From assembly GCA_021823555.1 (NCBI GenBank), contig JAKANW010000036.1, positions 1-12,409 on the forward strand: a stretch of DNA of 12,409 bases. The letters are read 5' to 3'. The translations under genes and the position numbers were made by a program. Origin of the DNA: Chloroflexota bacterium. GTDB lineage: Bacteria; Chloroflexota; Anaerolineae; Anaerolineales; Villigracilaceae. The first letter of the stretch is position 1, and the number at the start of each line of letters is the position of its first letter. The notes under the pieces were generated by a model. That model ran no database searches. It had not been told where the DNA came from and saw only the letters and a list, made by a program, of their open reading frames with translations. Below are positions 3,252-12,409 of this stretch, piece by piece.

Positions 3252-3791
3252 TTAAGATCCAAACGGCGTTGGAGAGGGAGCGAGGGTGGGCGTTTCAGAA
3301 GGCACGAGGGTGTCTGTCGGCGATGGCGTCAACGTATCGGTCGGCGGGATCGGCGAGGGAGTCACTGTGGGGGAAAGTGTATACGTAGCGGTTGGCGTAA
3401 AAGTCGGCGTGAAGGTATTGGTCGGTGAAGGCGTATCGCTGGGCGTAAAAGTGGGGACAGGAGAGAAAGTGGTGGTTGGGATAGGTGTATTCGTCGAAGG
3501 CTGGAACGGCGTCAGGGAGACAGTGGGAGTACTGGTAATCGAAGCGGTCACGGTAATGGAGGGAACCAAGGTGGGCGTCCCCGTCACGGTCAACGGAGTC
3601 GGGCTGACGGTCGGGGAAAGAGGCGTATCCGTCACCGCGGTAGTGCCCGTCGGGGTCGGCGTCGCGATATTCGCCGAGTTGGGGGCCAGCAGCAGGGCAA
3701 TCCCGCCAACGCAATAACAGGGGATGGTGAACAGGATGATGCTGGTCAGAATGAGGCGCAGACGAGCGCGGCGGTCGGTGGGATCGGGCAT
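3252..3791 (-). CDS. Membrane-anchored Thr/Pro/Ser-rich stalk protein
   Basis: About 179 residues from the ATG at 3791. A short basic N-terminus (MPDPTDRRARLR) precedes one hydrophobic segment of roughly 24 residues (about LILTSIILF to GGIALLLA). Everything after it is low-complexity Thr/Pro/Ser with TPT, SPT and TFTPT units to the end. This predicts a single-pass anchor with a long, rigid, perhaps glycosylated extracytoplasmic stalk and no catalytic domain. An in-frame ATG at 3812 would add seven residues, but it would leave only 5 nt to the divergent sbcC start. The 3791 start instead sits 10 nt from a TATAAT box with no ribosome site, which fits a leaderless message. It is the first gene of the peptidase operon, 3 nt before paralogue C. 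Similar TP-rich proteins are common in Anaerolineae; no specific function is known to me. Confidence 0.72.
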   Translation of the reverse strand: MPDPTDRRARLRLILTSIILFTIPCYCVGGIALLLAPNSANIATPTPTGTTAVTDTPLSPTVSPTPLTVTGTPTLVPSITVTASITSTPTVSLTPFQPSTNTPIPTTTFSPVPTFTPSDTPSPTNTFTPTFTPTATYTLSPTVTPSPIPPTDTLTPSPTDTLVPSETPTLAPSPTPFGS

Positions 3792-3800
3792 AACGGTTCG

Positions 3801-3806
3801 ATTATA
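3801..3806 (-). promoter_or_regulatory. -10 box of the peptidase operon (minus-strand reading of a palindrome)
   Basis: The palindrome ATTATAAT at 3801-3808 gives a perfect TATAAT on the minus strand. The start codon at 3791 follows 10 nt after its last base and no Shine-Dalgarno site is seen, so transcription would begin at or next to the ATG. No clear -35 element was found. The role is inferred. Confidence 0.5.
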
Positions 3807-3808
3807 AT
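3803..3808 (+). promoter_or_regulatory. -10 box of sbcC (plus-strand reading of the same palindrome)
   Basis: A perfect TATAAT lies on the plus strand, 10 nt before the sbcC ATG at 3818. There is no purine-rich ribosome site in front of that ATG, so a leaderless sbcC message is likely. No good TTGACA-like -35 is visible at the right spacing. Both divergent promoters would use the same eight bases, so they could compete for polymerase. Confidence 0.5.
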
Positions 3809-3817
3809 CCATGGCAC

Positions 3818-6418
3818 ATGATCCCCATCCAATTGCACATCTCCGGTTTCCTCTCCTACCGCGAACCCGCCGACCTCAACTTCAACAGCTTCGACCTGGC
3901 CTGCATCTCCGGGCAGAACGGCGCAGGCAAATCGTCACTGCTGGATGCAATGACGTGGAACCTGTTCGGCCAGGCGCGCGGCAAAAGCGACAATATCATC
4001 AACCTGGGCGCGAAGGCTGCCGAAGTTTCTTTAACGTTCGAGTATGAAGGCAACATCTACCGCGTCCAGCGCAGCCTGGCGCGCGGCAGGAATACGGTGC
4101 TGGAATTCCAAATTCTGGACGGTGGACCGGAGACCACGGACCGTCCATTAGCCTCTGTCCTCGATCAGGGCAGTTGGCGTCCACTGACCGAACGCACCAC
4201 GCGCGAAACACAGGCGCGCATCGAACAAACGCTGCGCCTCGACTATGACACCTTCGTCAACGCCTCCTTCTTCTTGCAGGGCAAAGCCGACCTGTTCACC
4301 CAGCAGACGGCCAGCAAGCGCAAAGAGGTGCTCGGCTCGATCCTCGGGCTGGAAATCTGGGAGACCTACCGCGAGCGCGCCGCCGAGCGCCGCAAGTCCA
4401 TCGAGCGCGAGCTGGCTGATATAGATGTGCGCGTGGCCGACATTGACGCGGAACTCTCCGAGGAGGAACCGCGCAAAAAACGGCTGGCCGAACTGGAAAC
4501 CAGTTTGAAGACCTTCAGTGCTGCCCGCGCCGCGCAGGAATCAACGCTGGAAAACTTCAGGAAGATGGCCGCTTCGCTGGCCGAACAACACAAACTGGCG
4601 GACACCCTTTCCGCGGCGCTCGAACGCTCGCGAAGCGCTCAGGCGGGACTGGCGAGTCGCCTGGCCGCCAAAGAAGCGGAACGCGCCGCCCAGACCAATC
4701 TCGTCAACCGCGCCAAAGAAATCGAGACCGCCTACAAAACCTGGCAATCGGCGCGGGAGGAAGTCTCCCGGCTGGACACAGTCGCGGCCCAATTCCGCGA
4801 GCATGATGAAAAACGCCAACCCTTGCTGCGCGAGATCGAATCCGAAAGGGCGCGGCTGGAACAGGAGCACAAGACGCTCAGCGAGCAGTTTTCAGTGGTC
4901 AGTAGTCAGTCGTCCGTGATCAACGGGCTGACAGCGCAGATCGAGGAGGCGAAGAAGTCGCTGGCGACCGCGGAAGCGAAACTGGCCGAACGCGAAGAAC
5001 TCGGCAGGCAGATCGGAGCGGCGCGTGAAAGGCTGGCGGAATTAAAGGCCGAGAATGAGGCCCTCAAAGCCCAAATGGATGAAATGAAGGCGCGCATTGA
5101 CCGGCTGGAAGAAACCGAGGGCGGGGATTGTCCCTTATGTGGGCAACCCCTCACTCCCGATCACCGCAAGCAGACCATCCGTCAATTGAAGCAGGATGGC
5201 AAAGGCTCCGGCGACCGTTACCGCGCCAACCAAAGGGAAATGGCCGGTCTTGCCGCGCAAATCACACAATGCGAATCACGCGTTACGCAATTAACTGCCG
5301 CCGAGCGCGAACGTCTCGCTGCATCCAATTCCATTTCCCAACTCAACGAGCGGCTGGAATCCCTGCGAAAGCAGCAAACGGACTGGGAAAAGACCGGCGC
5401 GAAACGCTTGAAAGAAATCGAAAAGGCTTTGGAAAGCGGCAAATACGCTCCCGAAGCGCAGAAGGAACTGGCGAAGATCAACAAGGAACTGGCCAAACTT
5501 GGCTACGATGCCTCCGCCCACGATGTGGCGCGGCAGGCCGAAGTCGAGGGGCGCAGCGCCGAACAGGAATTCCACGAACTGGAAGTTGCGCGTAAAGTCA
5601 GCCAGCAGATCGAGAACGAGATCAAAAGCCTGGAAGCGGATATCAAAAACCGGGAAGAAGAAATCGCCGCGCAGCAGAAACAATACGACTCGGTAGCCTC
5701 CGCCCTGGCTGCCGCCGAAGCCCAATCTCCCAACCTGGATGAAGCCGAGCGTGAACTTCTCAACTTGCGCGAGCAGGAGAACCAGGCACGCGATGAAGTT
5801 GTAGCAGCGCGGCAAAAGGTGACCGTGCTCGACAGCCTGCGCGCCCGCAAAACCGAGTACATGCTCCAACGTGAAGAACTTGGTCAATCCATCGCCCGCC
5901 ACAAAACACTGGAACGCGCCTTCGGCAAGGGCGGCGTCCCGGCGCTGCTGATCGAACAGGCCCTGCCGCAAATCGAAACCAAGGCCAACGACCTGCTCGA
6001 CCGCCTGAGCGACGGACAGATGAGCATCCGTTTTGTGACCCAGGCCGAATACAAAGACAAGAAGCGCGACGACCTGAAAGAGACGCTCGACATCCAGATC
6101 AGCGATGGCGCAGGGCTGCGCGATTACGAGATGTATTCCGGCGGCGAGGCTTTCCGCGTCAACTTCGCCATCCGCCTGGCGCTCTCCGAAGTACTGGCCC
6201 AGCGCAAAGGCGCCCGCCTGCAAACCCTGGTCATTGACGAAGGCTTCGGCTCGCAGGACGCCCAGGGCCGCCAGCGCCTGCTCGAAGCCATCAACCTGGT
6301 GAAAAACGACTTTGCCAAGATCCTGGTCATCACCCACCTTGATGAACTCAAGGACGCCTTCCCGACCAGGATCGAAGTCGAGAAGACCGGGAACGGCAGC
6401 GTGATTCGCGTACAGTAA
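3818..6418 (+). CDS. sbcC: SbcC/Rad50-type SMC-like ATPase, DNA double-strand-break processing
   Basis: An 866-residue protein, nearer archaeal Rad50 size than the longer E. coli SbcC. Known role: with the SbcD/Mre11 nuclease it forms a complex that opens hairpins and processes DNA ends. Walker A GQNGAGKSS is at 32-40; the Q-loop region around FVNASFFLQG is typical. Long Ala/Glu/Arg-rich coiled coils flank a zinc hook CPLCGQ (Cys438, Cys441). The ABC signature YSGGEAF begins at Tyr773, Walker B LVIDEGFGSQD has Asp807 and Glu808, and the switch His is His840 in VITHLDEL. All ATPase parts are intact. No sbcD lies next to it, which is unusual since sbcD often sits directly upstream. The ascending coil carries a heptamer repeat insertion (4892-4919). 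The start has no ribosome site and is likely leaderless. The gene converges on the decayed Rhs fragment. Confidence 0.96.
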   Translation: MIPIQLHISGFLSYREPADLNFNSFDLACISGQNGAGKSSLLDAMTWNLFGQARGKSDNIINLGAKAAEVSLTFEYEGNIYRVQRSLARGRNTVLEFQILDGGPETTDRPLASVLDQGSWRPLTERTTRETQARIEQTLRLDYDTFVNASFFLQGKADLFTQQTASKRKEVLGSILGLEIWETYRERAAERRKSIERELADIDVRVADIDAELSEEEPRKKRLAELETSLKTFSAARAAQESTLENFRKMAASLAEQHKLADTLSAALERSRSAQAGLASRLAAKEAERAAQTNLVNRAKEIETAYKTWQSAREEVSRLDTVAAQFREHDEKRQPLLREIESERARLEQEHKTLSEQFSVVSSQSSVINGLTAQIEEAKKSLATAEAKLAEREELGRQIGAARERLAELKAENEALKAQMDEMKARIDRLEETEGGDCPLCGQPLTPDHRKQTIRQLKQDGKGSGDRYRANQREMAGLAAQITQCESRVTQLTAAERERLAASNSISQLNERLESLRKQQTDWEKTGAKRLKEIEKALESGKYAPEAQKELAKINKELAKLGYDASAHDVARQAEVEGRSAEQEFHELEVARKVSQQIENEIKSLEADIKNREEEIAAQQKQYDSVASALAAAEAQSPNLDEAERELLNLREQENQARDEVVAARQKVTVLDSLRARKTEYMLQREELGQSIARHKTLERAFGKGGVPALLIEQALPQIETKANDLLDRLSDGQMSIRFVTQAEYKDKKRDDLKETLDIQISDGAGLRDYEMYSGGEAFRVNFAIRLALSEVLAQRKGARLQTLVIDEGFGSQDAQGRQRLLEAINLVKNDFAKILVITHLDELKDAFPTRIEVEKTGNGSVIRVQ
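4892..4919 (+). repeat. Heptanucleotide TCAGTNN repeat inside sbcC
   Basis: Three clean units (TCAGTGG, TCAGTAG, TCAGTCG) are followed by a degraded fourth (TCCGTGA). They encode a Ser/Val/Gln stretch near residues 359-368, interrupting an otherwise Glu/Arg/Lys-rich coiled coil. Three 7-nt units make 21 nt, so both reading frame and heptad spacing survive. It resembles the dispersed heptamer repeats found in several bacterial phyla. Confidence 0.6.
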
Positions 6419-6528
6419 ATTTCAGGGGGTATTTCTTACTATCATTTTGAACGCGGAGGGGACAAATCGCGCGGATTCGCACGTAAAGATAGTTGATGGT
6501 CTGCACGCCACGCGGTTGCCGTCGCCAT

Positions 6529-6548
6529 CCCTTCGACTTCGCTCAGGG
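6529..6548. repeat. Dispersed palindromic repeat, CCCTTCGA..CAGGG type
   Basis: The 20-base element CCCTTCGACTTCGCTCAGGG has CCCT/AGGG ends. On the minus strand it reads in frame as part of YPERSRR, exactly between the conserved Phe and DGDGNRV of the Rhs core. The other two Rhs copies lack it at the same place, so this is an insertion. The same motif is familiar as a dispersed repeat in many environmental bacterial genomes. Confidence 0.6.
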
Positions 6549-6763
6549 TAAACTCCAACAAAACTGGCTGAGGTGGTGGTCGTCATGGCCGGCAGGGCCC
6601 ATATCTTGAGCGACTCCGGCAGGGGCGGGAGTTCGGTCACCGTTCGTGCCGCGAGCATCAGCGGAGCGATCCTGTGGACGACGGTGCGAGACGGCAGGTC
6701 AGCCATAATATTCTCAGCCGTGTCTTTCTGGCTCACTTGTGGATCAGCAGCCCTCGCCCCCAG

Positions 6764-6786
6764 CCCCTCTCCCGCCAGGAGAGGGG
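6764..6786. repeat. Dispersed hairpin repeat with CCCCTCTCC / GGAGAGGGG stem
   Basis: A perfect 9-bp inverted repeat with a CGCCA loop, inside a C-rich/G-rich unit spanning about 6749-6790. On the minus strand it encodes TPLLAGEGLGAR, replacing the MAYEPPSLA segment of the other Rhs copies. It belongs to a widespread class of small non-coding repeats that spread without their own transposase. A second role as a terminator facing sbcC is possible but has no T-run to support it. Confidence 0.6.
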
Positions 6787-6830
6787 TGTAGGCCAGCGGC
6801 AGGCCAAAGACACGCACGATCAGGTTGCCA

Positions 6831-7109
6831 TCAAGGTAAACCTATAACCATGGTTAACAACGCAAGTATAGAACCCAGTATAAATAAGAGGGATATTGAT
6901 CTGGCGAGCCAAAGGTCAAGATAAGTATGTTTGTTTAAGAAATAAGCACTCGGTAGTTGCAGCTTAACAAAGAAGTTATCTTTATTTGCCTTTTGTCTTT
7001 TATGTTTAATTTTACTTAAATATATGTCGGGGTGAAACCATGGCAAATACGAATAATATAAAGAAGCAACTAAAAAGATTAATGCGTAAATAAATTTTAT
7101 CGTATTCAT
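6831..7109 (-). CDS. Small two-helix membrane protein, candidate partner of Rhs tip CT2
   Basis: A 92-residue protein I do not recognise. It has a hydrophobic segment at about residues 3-21, a basic middle (KIKHKRQKANK near 33-43), and a second hydrophobic segment at about 69-88, so both ends probably lie on the same side of the membrane. The ATG at 7109 was chosen because AGGTG stands about 8 nt before it. An earlier in-frame start at 7184 would overlap the Rhs end and has no comparable site. It begins 11 nt after the Rhs tip gene stops, and the ribosome site overlaps that stop codon, so translation is probably coupled. DNA is AT-rich, like CT2 and unlike the Rhs core. By position it fits an immunity protein of a polymorphic toxin pair; this is inference only. 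Confidence 0.62.
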   Translation of the reverse strand: MNTIKFIYALIFLVASLYYSYLPWFHPDIYLSKIKHKRQKANKDNFFVKLQLPSAYFLNKHTYLDLWLARSISLLFILGSILALLTMVIGLP

Positions 7110-7120
7110 GTGGTTTTCAC

Positions 7121-8815
7121 CTACTGACCGGTTTTTAGCCAAAACCGTATTCGATTGACAATAGGCGAGAGAGGAAAGCCCCATGTCACTGCTACACCTG
7201 CTCCTGGAGGAATATATGCACCACCTTCCATTGCTACTGGTGCCACATCCGGGAGTTTCCTTTCAAAGCCATAAAGTTCTGGCACATAGTCCACTGTGGA
7301 CGGGCTAACAGTAACTGACCCTCCGCCAACATAGCCTCCTCCAGCATTGATTGTTAACCCGCTGAGGAAAGTCTCTATGTTTCCCTGGCTTGGCATATCG
7401 CTGTCTAAGAGTGAACCAATCCACCCTCCCGTGAGCGAAAAAGTGGGCAACAATATTGATTTTCCCACGTTACCGCCTAATCCAATATAAACCTGATTAT
7501 AACGATCAACCGTTGCGCTAAATGTTAATAACTCCCCATTTACAGTAAATGTATAATAATCCGGATGAGATGGATCTAGATCCCAACTTGAAGGTGGGAC
7601 CCAAGGGCCAATTGATGTTGCTGCGCAGGGATGAGATTTAGGATAAGACGCTGGAGCACAGGATGGGGTAGGAGCAGTTGGTGCGATAGGCAATGTCGAG
7701 GGTGTTACTACAGGGGGCAGAGGTTTTGGCGGCCTCGAGTAGCTGCCTCGCTGTTCCCCATAGCATCCATAGGGACCGTCACAAGCCATATGCCCAGACG
7801 GATCGTTGTAAACCACAGGCGAGTTATTGGCGTAGGCGTACCTATCGTATCCTTGCACCCCACCCGGCACAATGCTATCTGCTTGGGCGAACCTCCCCAG
7901 CGAGCTATCGTACCAGCGCGCATTGAAATAGACCAAGCCGAAGGTACCGACGTACGAATATTGGCCGGTGAACTGGTATTGCGTGGGCGCCGTCCCGGCC
8001 TGGTAGCGCACCACGCCCCAGGCAGTGTAGCGCAGTTCCGAGACCACGTTGCCGCTGGCATCCAAGGTCAAGGAGGTGGAGTTGAGATGGTCGGAGAGCA
8101 GGTAATATAACGTGGAGCCTTGTCGCATCGCCACGCGCTGGCTCCCGGCATAGTAGTACTTGGTGATAATTTGGCCGGTCACCTCGTAGTAGTTGCCGAT
8201 GAAGTAGGTGGTGACTCCATTCACAGTCTGCGCCACGCGGTTGCCGTCGCCATCATACATGAAGGTGGCAGAGGTGGTATTCAGGGCGGGCATCGCCTGG
8301 ACCTTGAGGGCTTTGGCTTCCGGGTTTTGCACAGATTCCGGTAAGGGCGGCATGGCTGCCAAGTCAGCCATAATATTCTCAGTGGTAGCCTTCTCGTTCA
8401 TTTCTGGCGCAGAGGCTAAGGATGGAGGCTCGTAGGCCATCGGCAAGCCAAAGACGCGCACGATCAGGTAGGCCAGGTGGTCACGGTGTAGCGGATCGCC
8501 CGGACAGAAGTAGTTGCTGCCCGTCGCACAACTGTCGTTGATGCCCAGCCCCGACACCAGGTATTGGATGTAGTTCTTGAAGAATGAAGCGGAAATATCC
8601 ACGTAGGAATAGCTGGTATACGCGGGCACCGACCAGATGCCGCGGGCGCGCTCCACGAAGATGGCAAACTGCTCGCGCGTAGCCGCCTGGTCGGGGCAGT
8701 AGTTCGTCCCGCCGCAGCCGGAGGTGATGCCTTCGGCGGCAAACTGGTTGATCCAGTTGAAGGCCCAATACGAGGGCGGCACATGTCGATTTCTAACCCG
8801 ATTCAGAATTATCAA
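7121..8815 (-). CDS. Orphan Rhs tip: SLH fragment, Rhs core and unique C-terminus CT2
   Basis: An N-terminally truncated copy of the parent Rhs gene. Homology starts abruptly at 8783 ([13 protein letters not shown], inside the second SLH repeat) and runs through the third SLH repeat and the complete Rhs core ([42 protein letters not shown]). After the His codon at 7790-7792 the sequence is unrelated to the parent. The 222-codon CT2 starts Pro-rich, then becomes Gly/Ser/Thr-rich and beta-like (for example INAGGGYVGGGSVTV), with three cysteines near its start; no nuclease or toxin motif is recognised. The only upstream start is a TTG at 8815 giving 12 foreign residues and no good ribosome site, so it may be silent until recombination restores a full N-terminus. 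It is followed 11 nt later by a small membrane gene. Confidence 0.78.
   Translation of the reverse strand: MIILNRVRNRHVPPSYWAFNWINQFAAEGITSGCGGTNYCPDQAATREQFAIFVERARGIWSVPAYTSYSYVDISASFFKNYIQYLVSGLGINDSCATGSNYFCPGDPLHRDHLAYLIVRVFGLPMAYEPPSLASAPEMNEKATTENIMADLAAMPPLPESVQNPEAKALKVQAMPALNTTSATFMYDGDGNRVAQTVNGVTTYFIGNYYEVTGQIITKYYYAGSQRVAMRQGSTLYYLLSDHLNSTSLTLDASGNVVSELRYTAWGVVRYQAGTAPTQYQFTGQYSYVGTFGLVYFNARWYDSSLGRFAQADSIVPGGVQGYDRYAYANNSPVVYNDPSGHMACDGPYGCYGEQRGSYSRPPKPLPPVVTPSTLPIAPTAPTPSCAPASYPKSHPCAATSIGPWVPPSSWDLDPSHPDYYTFTVNGELLTFSATVDRYNQVYIGLGGNVGKSILLPTFSLTGGWIGSLLDSDMPSQGNIETFLSGLTINAGGGYVGGGSVTVSPSTVDYVPELYGFERKLPDVAPVAMEGGAYIPPGAGVAVTWGFPLSPIVNRIRFWLKTGQ
7790..8783 (-). repeat. Copy 2 of the ~1-kb SLH/Rhs-core repeat
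   Basis: This segment is a direct repeat of 9853-10854. Long stretches are base-identical, notably across the third SLH repeat, with scattered changes elsewhere and lower similarity near the DPSGH end. Its upstream edge is sharp: both copies share GGGCGGCAC and then diverge completely. Confidence 0.85.
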
Positions 8816-8842
8816 GGACGAATCGGTTGGATTCAGAATACA
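8784..8842. other. Junction spacer between small membrane gene and orphan Rhs copy
   Basis: Fifty-nine AT-rich bases between the stop of the small membrane gene (8843) and the point where Rhs homology resumes (8783). They match nothing in the parent gene, show no transposon ends or clear direct repeats, and probably mark a past recombination join. Confidence 0.45.
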
Positions 8843-9166
8843 CTACTTCTTGCGAATTGAATCCAATACAGTGAAACGCATATATGTTCCTAATATCGCA
8901 ACCAGTCCAAAAGGCAAACCGAGGCATAATAACAAGAGGAAACTACTGAGTGACCAATTCTCAATTGCATTTGGCGCACTAGTAAGATCAACAACTGAAA
9001 GCGCACTGGGCAACAGAACCATTACACTAATTCCTGTGTACAAAGAACGAGATATTTTCTCTCTTTTGCTCATAGGCGGAATCCAATACCGCGCTTCCCA
9101 ACCTATAGTTACAAGAGACAAGAGACTCAATATACTCGCCGTAAGAATAGCAACTATATTAACCAT
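8843..9166 (-). CDS. Small three-helix membrane protein, candidate partner of Rhs tip CT1
   Basis: A 107-residue protein I do not recognise. Hydrophobic segments lie at about residues 2-20, 43-60 and 72-95, with a basic loop (SKREKISR, 33-40) after the first and a charged C-terminus (DSIRKK). The ATG at 9166 has a good ribosome site, AAAGGA, about 8 nt upstream. It starts 35 nt after the parent Rhs gene stops and is on the same strand. Its DNA is AT-rich like CT1. It has no visible similarity to the 92-residue membrane protein that follows CT2, although the position is equivalent. Different small membrane proteins after different Rhs tips is what tip-specific immunity genes would look like; membrane immunity usually goes with membrane-active or periplasmic toxins. 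This role is inferred. Confidence 0.65.
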   Translation of the reverse strand: MVNIVAILTASILSLLSLVTIGWEARYWIPPMSKREKISRSLYTGISVMVLLPSALSVVDLTSAPNAIENWSLSSFLLLLCLGLPFGLVAILGTYMRFTVLDSIRKK

Positions 9167-9201
9167 TTTGTCGATCCTTTCTCAAAAATTCTATCAGTTC
9201 A

Positions 9202-9852
9202 TCAAGGGTTCGGAATAGCAATATGGACATTAAAGGAAGAATATAGATTCGCTATTACTTGTGGTAATTTACCTTCATCGTTTAATACAGCTAAATATTG
9301 AAGTCCTAGCGAAGGCTCTGATATAGAAGCTGCCCATCCTGCTCCACTTAATGCAGATGAAATATTAGTGTTTGATGAAACATTCATAGTGACATTTATA
9401 GTTGACTTGTCTAGGTAGCCCACAATACCTGTTTCGCCAGTTTTCAAATCTGCGAGAATGCTCAATGAACTTGCTGTTGAAGCAATGCCATTAGCAGTCT
9501 GTAAAAATGGCTGCACCAAAACTTCGCCCATAATCCACCCAGCAGCAGCTCCAGCAAGTCCAGTGACTGGCGCGCCCTCAAATCCTACTAAGCCTCCTAG
9601 CAACGCCATACCAAAGGTCATTACACCGACACCCGCTTCAGACCCAATATCAATTCCAAAGGCTATTTTGTCTAATAGTGCTGCAATTTCCCTTAACCTC
9701 GTGGGGGCAGCATTCGGAAGGAGTCTTTTTGCGATATCTACTGTGTTGAAATATATTCGATTATTACTACCGATAGGTTGCGATGGTAAATCAGGTTGTT
9801 GTGGTTTTGAAGGAGGTGAATAGTGACTACCACCATCTCCCTCCGTAAGCCA
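9202..9852 (-). other. Variable C-terminal tip CT1 of the parent Rhs gene
   Basis: The sequence after DPSGH is unrelated to CT2, so it is a separate module. It begins polar and Pro-rich ([14 protein letters not shown]), continues with a helical region ([15 protein letters not shown]), a Gly/Ala-rich hydrophobic region that could cross a membrane, and ends with a Ser/Asn/Thr-rich part ([14 protein letters not shown]). Base composition falls in GC relative to the core. No catalytic motif of a known Rhs toxin was found. Confidence 0.6.
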
Positions 9853-12409
9853 ATGACCAGACGGATCAGTATATCGGACGGGGTTATTATTAACAAATGC
9901 GTACCGATCCAAAGCCTGTGTACCTTGAGAGGCAAGAGGTACAATCGTATCAGGTTGGGCCCAGCGGTTAAGATAACCGTCATACCAACGTGCATTGAAA
10001 TAGACCAAGCCGAAGGAATCAACGTAGCTTCGTTGACCCGTGTACTGGTATTGCGTAAGCGTGGACCCGGCCTGGTAGCGCACTTGTCCCCAGGCAGTGT
10101 AGCGCAGTTCCGAGAGCACGTTGCCGCCGGAATCCAGCGTCAATGAGGTGGAGTTGAGATAGTCCGAGAGCAGGTAATATAACGTGGAGCCTTGGCGCAT
10201 GGCCACGCGTTGACTTCCAGCATAATAGTACTTGGTGACAATTTGGCCGGTCACTTCGTAGTAGTTGCCGATGAAATAAGTAGTCACACCATTGACGGTC
10301 TGCGCGACGCGGTTACCGTCGCCGTCATAAGTGAAACTGGCGGAGGTGGTGTTCAGGGCTGGCATGGCCCACACCTTGAGGGCTTTGGCTTCCGGGTCTT
10401 GCACGGATTCCGGCAAGGGCGGCATGGCTGCCAAGTCAGCCACAATATTCTCAGTGGTAGCCTTCTCGTTCATTTCTGGCGCAGAGGCTAAGGATGGAGG
10501 CTCGTAGGCCATCGGCAGGCCAAAGACACGCACGATCAGGTAGGCCAGGTGGTCACGGTGTAGCGGATCGCCCGGACAGAAGTAGTTGCTGCCCGTCGCA
10601 CAACTGTCGTTGATGCCCAGCCCCGACACCAGGTATTGGATGTAATTCTTGAAGACCGAGCCGGAGATATCCACATAAGAGTAACTGGTGTACGAGGGCA
10701 CCGACCAGATGCCGCGGGCGCGTTCCACGAAGATGGCAAACTGCTCGCGCGTGGCCGGGCTGTCCGGGCAGTAATTTCCGCCCCCGCAGCCGGCCGTGAT
10801 GCCCTCGGCCGCAAACTGGTTGATCCAGTTGAAGGCCCAATACGAGGGCGGCACGTCCGTAAAGCGCTGGGCGCTGGCGGGCGGGGTGTAGCCCGCACCG
10901 TGCTCGGCCTTTAGCAGGAAGATGGCCATCTCGGCGCGCGAGACGTTGTTCGTCGGGCAGTAGCGCAGGGGATTGTAGGCGCAGCCGCCGGTGATGCCCG
11001 CCCGGTACAAGGCTTCGATGTAGGGTTTGTACGGGTTGCCGTAGGGCACATCCGCAAAGATCGGCGCAGGCGTGGGAGTAATGGAGGGCGTGCTGGTGGG
11101 TGTGCGCGTGGGCGTGTTGGTAGGCGTGCGGGTGGGCGTGCGGGTGGAGGTGGGAAGGGGGGTCGGCGTGCTGGTGGCTGCCACCGCGGTCGGCGAGGCC
11201 TGTGGCGTGGCGGTCGGGTTGGCCGATCCGCTGACCGAGACCAGGTGTCCCTCGGCGTCATAGCCGAAGTTGGAGACTGCGCCGCCCGCGCTGCGATAGG
11301 TCATATTGCCGTCCGCATCGTAATTATACCCGCCGCCATTGAAGATGGACACGGCATGAGGATGGCCTGCGTCGTAGGTATAGGTCTGCCCGGCGCGGGT
11401 CTGCAGGTTGCCGGTCGTGGCGTTGTAGCTGTAGGTTTCGGAATATGTGCCTCCGCTGCCTCCCGTGGCCGAGGCGGAGGTCAGGCGGTTGAGAGAATCG
11501 TAACCGAAGCTCTGGGTCTGTGGCCCCGCCATCTGATCCAGGATGGTCTTCACGTTGCCGGCCGCATCGTAGGTGTAGCTCAGGTTCTGGAAGACGTATT
11601 GTGTGGAGACGCGGCTGGAGACGATCTGGCTCAGGCGGCCGCCCTGGACGTTCCAGGCGTTGTAATAGTAGTTGGTCTTCACGCCATCCCCGTACGTGCG
11701 CTGACTCAAACGTGAAGCGATATCGTAGGTGGTCCCGGTCACGTAACTGCTCACACCGGCAACTGTGTTGAGCAGCATCTGGGCGTTGTAGGTCTGGGTC
11801 ACCACTTCCCCATCCGGGTAGGTGATGGAGGTGGGCAGGTCGGCCAGGTTGTAGGCCCAGGAGGTATCGAAAGGCTGCCCAAGAATGATTTTATGTTCCT
11901 GGGTCATGTGGCCGCGCGCATCGTAGCTCCAGGAGGTCGAGCCGGAGCCATCGCTCATCGAAGTGCGGCGGCCAATCCCATAGATTCCGCTCGTTGGATC
12001 ATCGTACGTGTAGGTCGTGTTGACCGGTGCGCCGCAGCTTCCTGTACTGGATTTGCTCGTCAGGCGATTGAGGGGATCATAGCCCATGCTCAACACACAG
12101 CCGCGCGCGTCGGTCTGGGTCAACAGGTTGCCCAGGGCGTCGTAGGAATAGCTCCAATAGCCCATATCCGGGTCGCTCATGCTGGTCTTCTGCCCGGCGT
12201 AATTGTAAGTCATGCTGGTGGTCAATCCGCCGCGCAAAGTGGTGGACAGGCGGTTCAACGGGTCATAGGTATAGGTCACAACCGGCCCCGTCGGCGGGGT
12301 AACGCTCAACGTCCGCCCCCAGATATCGGTGGTCGTGACGGTGTTATGGGTTCCGCCATTTGTATCCGGCTCGGTCACGGTGGTGGTCAGGCTGTCGTAA
12401 GAATAATGG
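9202..12409 (-). CDS. Rhs/YD-repeat surface protein with interpolated SLH domains and C-terminus CT1 (5' end outside window)
   Basis: The frame is open to the right edge, so the N-terminus is missing; a GTG at 12378 is internal, since YD-repeat sequence (HYSYDSL) continues upstream. From the N-side: about a dozen YD repeats ([36 protein letters not shown]), a Thr/Pro linker (11062-11220), three SLH repeats (10517-11061), a linker, more YD repeats with the Rhs core ([27 protein letters not shown]), then DPSGH and the 216-codon CT1 (9202-9852). Rhs shells are known to enclose and deliver C-terminal toxins; SLH repeats normally tether proteins to the cell wall or surface glycans. CT1 has a Gly/Ala-rich hydrophobic stretch ([15 protein letters not shown] and onward) followed by an AT-rich end with no motif I know. 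It is followed by a small membrane gene. Confidence 0.92.
9853..10854 (-). repeat. Copy 1 of the ~1-kb SLH/Rhs-core repeat
   Basis: The source-like copy inside the parent gene, repeated at 7790-8783 in the same orientation. Such a long direct repeat could support recombination that deletes CT1 and its partner gene and joins the parent N-terminus to CT2. Confidence 0.85.
10517..11061 (-). other. Three SLH repeats with paired cysteines
   Basis: The three repeats start at [18 protein letters not shown] and YVDISGS. Each has the SLH pattern of a D-V/I start, an aromatic helix, a GITGGC-, GITAGC- or GINDSC-type turn and an R-E/D-H/Q helix. In each, a Cys after the turn is followed five or seven residues later by a second Cys in a YCP or FCP motif, so one disulphide per repeat is plausible outside the cell. 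Confidence 0.85.
11062..11220 (-). repeat. Thr/Pro linker repeat (RTPT/NTPT units)
   Basis: A low-complexity coding repeat between the YD-repeat shell and the SLH repeats, with units such as [16 protein letters not shown]. It should form an extended, flexible or glycosylated spacer, and it is compositionally like the tail of the stalk protein at 3252-3791. Confidence 0.8.

Follow-up and report, generated by a model that had tools for sequence, protein, structure and literature searches.

What purpose is served by a locus in which an Rhs protein is followed, on the same strand, by further pieces of its own core, a second C-terminal tip and small genes for membrane proteins? The question is raised by contig JAKANW010000036.1 of a Chloroflexota bacterium (Anaerolineales; Villigracilaceae), of which we analysed a stretch of 12,409 nt, here called the window. 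A first-pass annotation had proposed that the region keeps displaced toxin tips together with their immunity genes. We consider it highly probable that the region is a polymorphic toxin locus of the Rhs kind, in which displaced tip/immunity cassettes form a short orphan array, and where the toxicity of the tips and the protection by the small proteins are roles that we infer. The reading is carried mainly by the first tip, CT1, which is inherited together with its small partner P0003, and by related arrays, in which the type of partner follows the type of tip.

Organisation of the locus

Between position 12408 and about position 6499 the minus strand holds, in this order, the Rhs core, CT1, an open reading frame (ORF) for a protein with three transmembrane (TM) segments, core copy 2, the tip CT2, an ORF for a protein with two TM segments, and a decayed core 3. 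Every element that the first-pass annotation had placed there was recovered, in its order and at its coordinates, and the crude hydropathy count by which we counted TM segments likewise gave three for P0003 and two for P0004. The features are as follows.

9202..12408, minus strand: main Rhs protein P0001, 1068 residues visible, 5' end beyond the window (RHS_repeat 1.1e-28, SLH 1.9e-10, Rhs_assc_core 4.2e-16)
10489..11061, minus strand: S-layer homology (SLH) region of about three SLH-like units (Pfam SLH at residues 515-558; three-unit extent judged by eye)
9853..10101, minus strand: end of the Rhs-associated core, closing with DPSGH (TIGR03696 at residues 770-852)
9202..9852, minus strand: CT1, variable tip of 216 residues with a hydrophobic Gly-rich segment (profile relatives in genomes G003, G219, G198 and G165)
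8843..9166, minus strand: P0003, 107-residue protein with three TM segments, probable CT1 immunity protein (Shine-Dalgarno-like AGAAAGGA before the ATG; homologues after CT1 relatives)
7908..8782, minus strand: second SLH/core copy (frame with CT2, 8815-7121)
7121..7789, minus strand: CT2, Gly-rich variable tip of 222 residues (relatives P0006, P0007 and one in locus L108)
6831..7109, minus strand: P0004, 92-residue protein with two TM segments, candidate CT2 immunity protein (Shine-Dalgarno-like AGGTGA before the ATG)
6499..6825, minus strand: third core fragment, decayed, without recognisable tip

The RHS repeats, the SLH part and the Rhs-associated core of the main protein were confirmed by both Pfam and NCBIfam, and their succession is that of Rhs polymorphic toxins, with YD/RHS repeats followed by the Rhs-associated core and then by a variable C-terminal tip. 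The part downstream of it has the make-up of an orphan array: there are two further core copies, one of which leads to another tip with its own small gene, and the orphan tip has no start signal of its own while the small genes have one, as judged by eye rather than with a scored model. Upstream of the TTG at 8815, where the orphan CT2 frame starts, inspection by eye found no Shine-Dalgarno-like stretch.

Core copy 2 is 88.9% identical to copy 1 over 875 nt (blastn, E 0.0); core 3 resembles the main core in short nucleotide stretches and was recognised by tblastn (3e-18), and a direct-repeat search of the window recovered the same copy families. The new cores begin close behind the small genes, 60 nt separating the stop of the three-TM gene (8843) from the first homologous base of core 2 (8782) and 5 nt the stop of the two-TM gene (6831) from core 3 (6825), which agrees with the range of 5-60 nt given earlier. 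At the nucleotide level, copies 1 and 2 cease to be similar at 9980/7908, about 40 codons short of the DPSGH end. Identity in 50-nt steps falls from 68% at 10004 to 44% at 9954, and the 20% of the next step reflects copies that are out of register, with a short indel between them at that point; protein-level similarity extends to the end of the core. Since nucleotide similarity ends about 40 codons before DPSGH, the exchanged part seems to include the last segment of the core. The two longest stretches in which these copies are identical measure 116 and 74 nt, lengths that are in principle sufficient for homologous recombination.

Two short palindrome-like stretches were noticed by eye in core 3, without an exact match in 213 loci; one further pattern has no match in the window.

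CT1 is inherited together with a three-TM partner

Of 5.8 billion proteins searched with the single CT1 sequence, none was matched at E<=1e-3. A profile built from the window tip and two relatives matched four of 248 genomes of the class to which G003 belongs, two of the matches being to sequences outside the profile (E 1.4e-17 and 3.8e-14), and a five-row profile searched among 396 genomes returned the same four genomes. When each tip was left out of its own profile, the window copy was recovered at 1.4e-26, that of L140 at 7.5e-24 and that of G003 at 4e-24, from a database that left out L179 and L180.

In three other loci, L177 (G219), L179 (G198) and L180 (G165), a P0003-like three-TM protein comes directly after the CT1 relative, with overlapping or adjoining ends; with the window, tip and partner thus occur together in four of the five CT1 loci. 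Smith-Waterman z-scores against shuffled sequences were 18.5 for P0003 and the L180 protein, 8.6 for P0003 and that of L179, 4.2 for P0003 and that of L177, and only 1.5 between L177 and L179. The score of an unrelated TM partner against P0003 (66) is close to that of L179 (71), so pairwise scores alone are insufficient to establish the homology of these proteins. Leave-one-out profiles of P0003 recovered all four at 1.4e-5 to 2.3e-15 among 10,189 ORFs, with the next unrelated ORF at 0.06 or worse. In the 248 genomes the P0003 profile had matches at E<=0.01 in five, namely three CT1 loci and two antisense matches; the latter, in G097 and G035 (E about 0.002), were rejected because they run antisense to a 488-residue frame. 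Beyond the CT1 loci there was no other credible match in these genomes, so within this set P0003 does not look like one of those widespread conserved proteins whose occurrence without Rhs tips the first-pass annotation had named as fatal to its proposal. Identity across genomes is 20-36%, a level at which P0003 and CT1 can still be recognised together. The co-inheritance is observed, and on this basis P0003 is probably the immunity protein that protects against CT1.

Tips and partners co-vary in arrays of related genomes

Among named genomes, the eight that match the core best are labelled as Anaerolineales or other Chloroflexota metagenome-assembled genomes, in keeping with the phylum that the first-pass annotation had judged probable. 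The core was found at E<=1e-10 in six of the seven genomes reached through the loci and had a match in 114 of the 248 genomes of the class; G003 alone had 27 core matches, eight of them on contig C16 and seven on C40. Stretches were taken from 41 genomes, picked for strong or clustered core matches and not randomly. When 56 loci and the window were read by script, 77 core ends turned up, spread over the window and 38 of the loci. Of these, 74 led to a tip of 60-420 residues and a stop, and for 69 of the 74 tips a longest-ORF rule, kept simple, assigned a following ORF; the window itself contributes two of these 69 cassettes. Most tips (59/69) measure 190-270 residues, and 24 of the 69 partners have at least two TM segments by hydropathy count.

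The comparison of related loci suggested by the first-pass annotation, carried out in part, upheld its proposal: the same kind of core is found with different tips and partners, in long arrays. Among the 69 cassettes, at the thresholds used, 17 of 53 tip-similar pairs had similar partners, compared with 6 of 2293 tip-dissimilar pairs, and none of 2000 permutations of the partners reached 17, the largest value being 4; this permutation figure is only a guide, given that the pairs depend on one another and that linkers account for some of the tip similarity. Tip and partner types therefore co-vary, instead of the tips being fixed or unlinked from the small genes.

The clearest case is that of zincin-like tips with the motif HE(F/L/M)(G/A)H, all five of which have partners with PC(W/F/Y)xxI(T/V)xGxT, a pattern found in none of the other 64 cassettes. 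These cassettes lie in L094, L096 and L099, and inspection by eye adds L179 and one cassette of L101 to them; also by eye, a lipoprotein-type N-terminus was recognised in four of the five partners. Zincin-like tips and lipoprotein-like partners are a candidate for another tip/immunity family, with immunity acting outside the cytoplasm. Related hydrophobic tips with related TM partners of 92-112 residues were also seen in cassettes 1, 5 and 6 of L091 and cassette 0 of L098, which apparently form a second membrane tip/partner family.

Pfam was run on 28 of the 37 listed array tips and on P0006 and P0007 (30 proteins). One tip had PT-HINT and Ntox10 and one DUF6973; Ntox44 and Peptidase_Mx1 appeared once each, below the cut-off, and the remaining 26 of the 30 proteins had no Pfam match at E<=0.01. 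The tip with the PT-HINT pretoxin domain and Ntox10 lies at L097:714-1760, on a long Rhs frame of G003.

CT2 and the search for known families

Besides the window's own protein, a search with CT2 found two metagenome Rhs proteins with other cores, P0006 (65% identity) and P0007 (46%). A remoter relative in L108 of G082 was matched at 3e-5 in one search and 5.9e-8 in another, and a four-row CT2 profile matched one of the 248 genomes, G082, whose copy is itself a row of the profile. In L108 the stop of the CT2 relative is overlapped by a 71-residue ORF with two TM segments, after which a new core copy begins. CT2/P0004 is a candidate pair by position and topology, weaker than CT1/P0003.

The first-pass annotation could match neither the tips nor their partners to known families, and this held: nothing exceeded the curated cut-offs in Pfam, NCBIfam or PADLOC, and the PHROGs matches of both Rhs frames were confined to repeats, SLH and core, with none in the tips or small proteins. 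A 154-residue part of CT2 had no match in plasmid or phage records, nor CT1 in plasmid records. A PDB sequence search gave nothing below 0.23 for CT1 and, for CT2, a weak adhesin match (0.0044) that was rejected as an effect of composition; a match of P0004 to YrhK (0.00035), below cut-off and covering about 15 residues, was also rejected.

How the array may have arisen, and other explanations

We propose that the main Rhs protein would present CT1 while P0003 shields the producer from it. A new tip would enter by recombination in the conserved core, displacing the older tip and its immunity gene downstream together with a piece of core, and CT2/P0004 and core 3 would be remnants of such displacements; the copying of the core is observed, and the order of events is our reconstruction. 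Since the orphan CT2 frame has no obvious start and the small genes have ribosome-binding-like sites, the array probably serves as a bank of immunity genes and a reserve of tips, which could be reloaded through the 89%-identical core.

The YD/SLH protein could instead be anchored in the wall and have a structural or adhesive role, with antigenic or receptor variation at its C-terminus and small neighbours that aid export or anchoring instead of conferring immunity. The SLH insert would suit a wall protein, SLH triples of the same type end ordinary long frames in G208, and neither tip of the window matches a toxin family. An export helper should, however, serve the constant part of the protein, yet partner types follow tip types; in the genomes searched, every P0003 homologue detected lay next to CT1, and some tips of such arrays carry named toxin domains. 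We therefore regard a wall protein of this kind as unlikely. Still less probable is a dead array of core duplications with random tails, free of selection, in which the small ORFs are chance frames. The decay of core 3, the lack of a homologue of P0004 and the orphan frame without start signal would fit it, but unselected sequence would not keep P0003 and CT1 recognisable together at their level of identity, which largely refutes the idea for this pair, and CT2 retains 46-65% identity in Rhs proteins whose cores are different. To a similarly slight degree we credit the view that the small membrane proteins act as a second part of the toxin, be it as co-toxins or as pore partners, and not as immunity proteins. 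P0003, co-inherited with its tip, could be a pore subunit, and sequence alone cannot separate the two roles. To our knowledge, however, the gene directly after the tip in characterised Rhs loci is an immunity gene. The small genes of the window also have their own start signals, and in D. dadantii the immunity gene lies directly after the tip in the account of PMC3150448.

Several observations weigh against a locus of toxin tips and immunity genes. The window ends before the N-terminus of P0001, and the secretion route is not visible in it. AlphaFold models of CT2 (three sequences) and CT1 (two sequences) were unusable, with a mean predicted local distance difference test score of 31. In G003, which holds the fifth CT1 locus, the tip is followed by a different protein, 173 residues long. 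In the arrays 36 of the 53 tip-similar pairs have no detectable partner similarity; some of these pairs are alike in the linker only, and partners were called by the longest-ORF rule, but the figure stands regardless. A search of the protein set with P0004 returned only itself, and P0004 is not similar to the two-TM ORF of L108 (z -0.8); as the two share no detectable sequence, what supports the pairing of CT2 with P0004 is the position and topology seen in two loci. Finally, hydrophobic tips were not significantly tied to TM partners (16/24 versus 21/45, Fisher p 0.13; Mann-Whitney p 0.053), and GxxxGxxxG was no commoner in tips with TM partners (7/24) than in the others (13/45). The tip/immunity interpretation of the first-pass annotation is accordingly upheld best for CT1/P0003, through co-inheritance, whereas P0004 lacks a homologue, and toxin and immunity are roles deduced for both pairs.

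Because the partners of both tips are apparently integral to the membrane, the likeliest site of action of the tips would be the cytoplasmic membrane of the target cell, for example by depolarising it. We see this step as evenly balanced: with the hydrophobicity and GxxxGxxxG tests negative or marginal, it rests mainly on the topology of the partners.

The SLH insert

The SLH region is placed within the YD/RHS repeats, with a Thr/Pro-rich linker before it and the last YD units after it. Cores of relatives appear to be without SLH: a tblastn query containing SLH aligned only from the post-SLH part (17 loci in six genomes, E<=1e-4), and among the matches listed from the core search of the 248 genomes none enters the SLH part by more than 1-2 residues. 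A search with the SLH part itself had matches in three of the 248 genomes, and in 24 of 24 such loci, on both strands, the SLH units end a long frame without Rhs-core motif, as far as the patterns used can tell. With this insert the Rhs shell may be fastened to the cell wall; if functional, the insert suggests a way to hold such a shell there. It is conceivable, though we are inclined to doubt it, that the whole forms a wall-tethered Rhs weapon, in which the SLH-bearing shell would hold membrane-attacking tips of a new family at the surface of the cell and the array would bank tips with co-evolved membrane immunity proteins, CT1 with its three-TM family among them.

Neighbouring genes

3818-6418, plus strand: SbcC-like ATPase, convergent with the array

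Further neighbours beyond the array are two M42 peptidases and one S51 peptidase. Beside the SbcC-like gene lies a Thr/Pro-rich ORF of 186 residues (3252-3812) with one N-terminal hydrophobic segment, seen by eye; it has no NCBIfam match.

Comparison with known systems

It is interesting to compare the locus with the orphan cdiA-CT/cdiI and rhs-CT/rhsI modules described by Poole et al. in 2011 (PMC3150448). There, as here, a main toxin gene of the contact-dependent growth inhibition or Rhs type is followed by fragments that have part of the parent gene, a different tip and their own immunity gene; in that account orphan cdiA-CT genes mostly lack start signals, and up to eleven orphan pairs occur in one cdi locus. 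The examples given there come from Proteobacteria and have VENN or DPxGL boundaries, whereas in the window nucleotide identity ends about 40 codons before the DPSGH end. Unlike those examples, the core of the window carries an SLH insert, and none of the named families searched is matched by its tips or partners.

For the putative function of CT1 and CT2 the model used here is Tse5/Tsi5 of Pseudomonas aeruginosa (PMC9637101), in which an Rhs tip depolarises the membrane and the immunity protein has two predicted TM regions. Tse5 is delivered by a type VI secretion system and has a PAAR-like N-terminus, whereas the N-terminus of the window's protein is out of view; the likeness is one of description, and scans of the window's tips gave no named family. 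EsxX/ExiCD and TspA/TsaI (PMC12744356) also combine membrane-depolarising toxins that have Gly-zipper segments with integral-membrane immunity proteins, and exiCD occurs as orphan genes as well; EsxX and TspA are, however, substrates of type VII secretion systems and not Rhs proteins, and in our arrays GxxxGxxxG does not mark out the tips that have TM partners.

The survey of Zhang et al. from 2012 (PMC3482391) describes arrays of toxin cassettes, the order of toxin then immunity gene, and Chloroflexi rich in such systems. Orphan tip arrays and the abundance of polymorphic toxin systems in this phylum are therefore already known. The first-pass annotation, which had expected an undescribed set in the Chloroflexota, was right in that the families are unmatched, but the phylum is less of a novelty than it supposed. 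The term SLH is absent from the first 300,000 of the 357,715 characters of the main text of the survey, and S-layer homology, Rhs repeat and toxin occur together as terms in PMC1876623. In open-licence literature, searched by titles and the beginnings of abstracts, and in the survey as far as it was covered, we found no bench study of such tip/partner pairs in the phylum. As distinct from the systems of the survey, neither the two tips nor their partners reach the curated cut-off of any Pfam family. What appears to be new, as far as our searches go, is the family of CT1 and its three-TM partner, that of CT2, how large the arrays become in this class, and the presence of SLH within an Rhs core. 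To the known systems the locus thus adds a co-inherited family of tip and three-TM partner that matches no named family searched, and the long arrays of this class offer many natural tip/partner pairs in which specificity can be tested.

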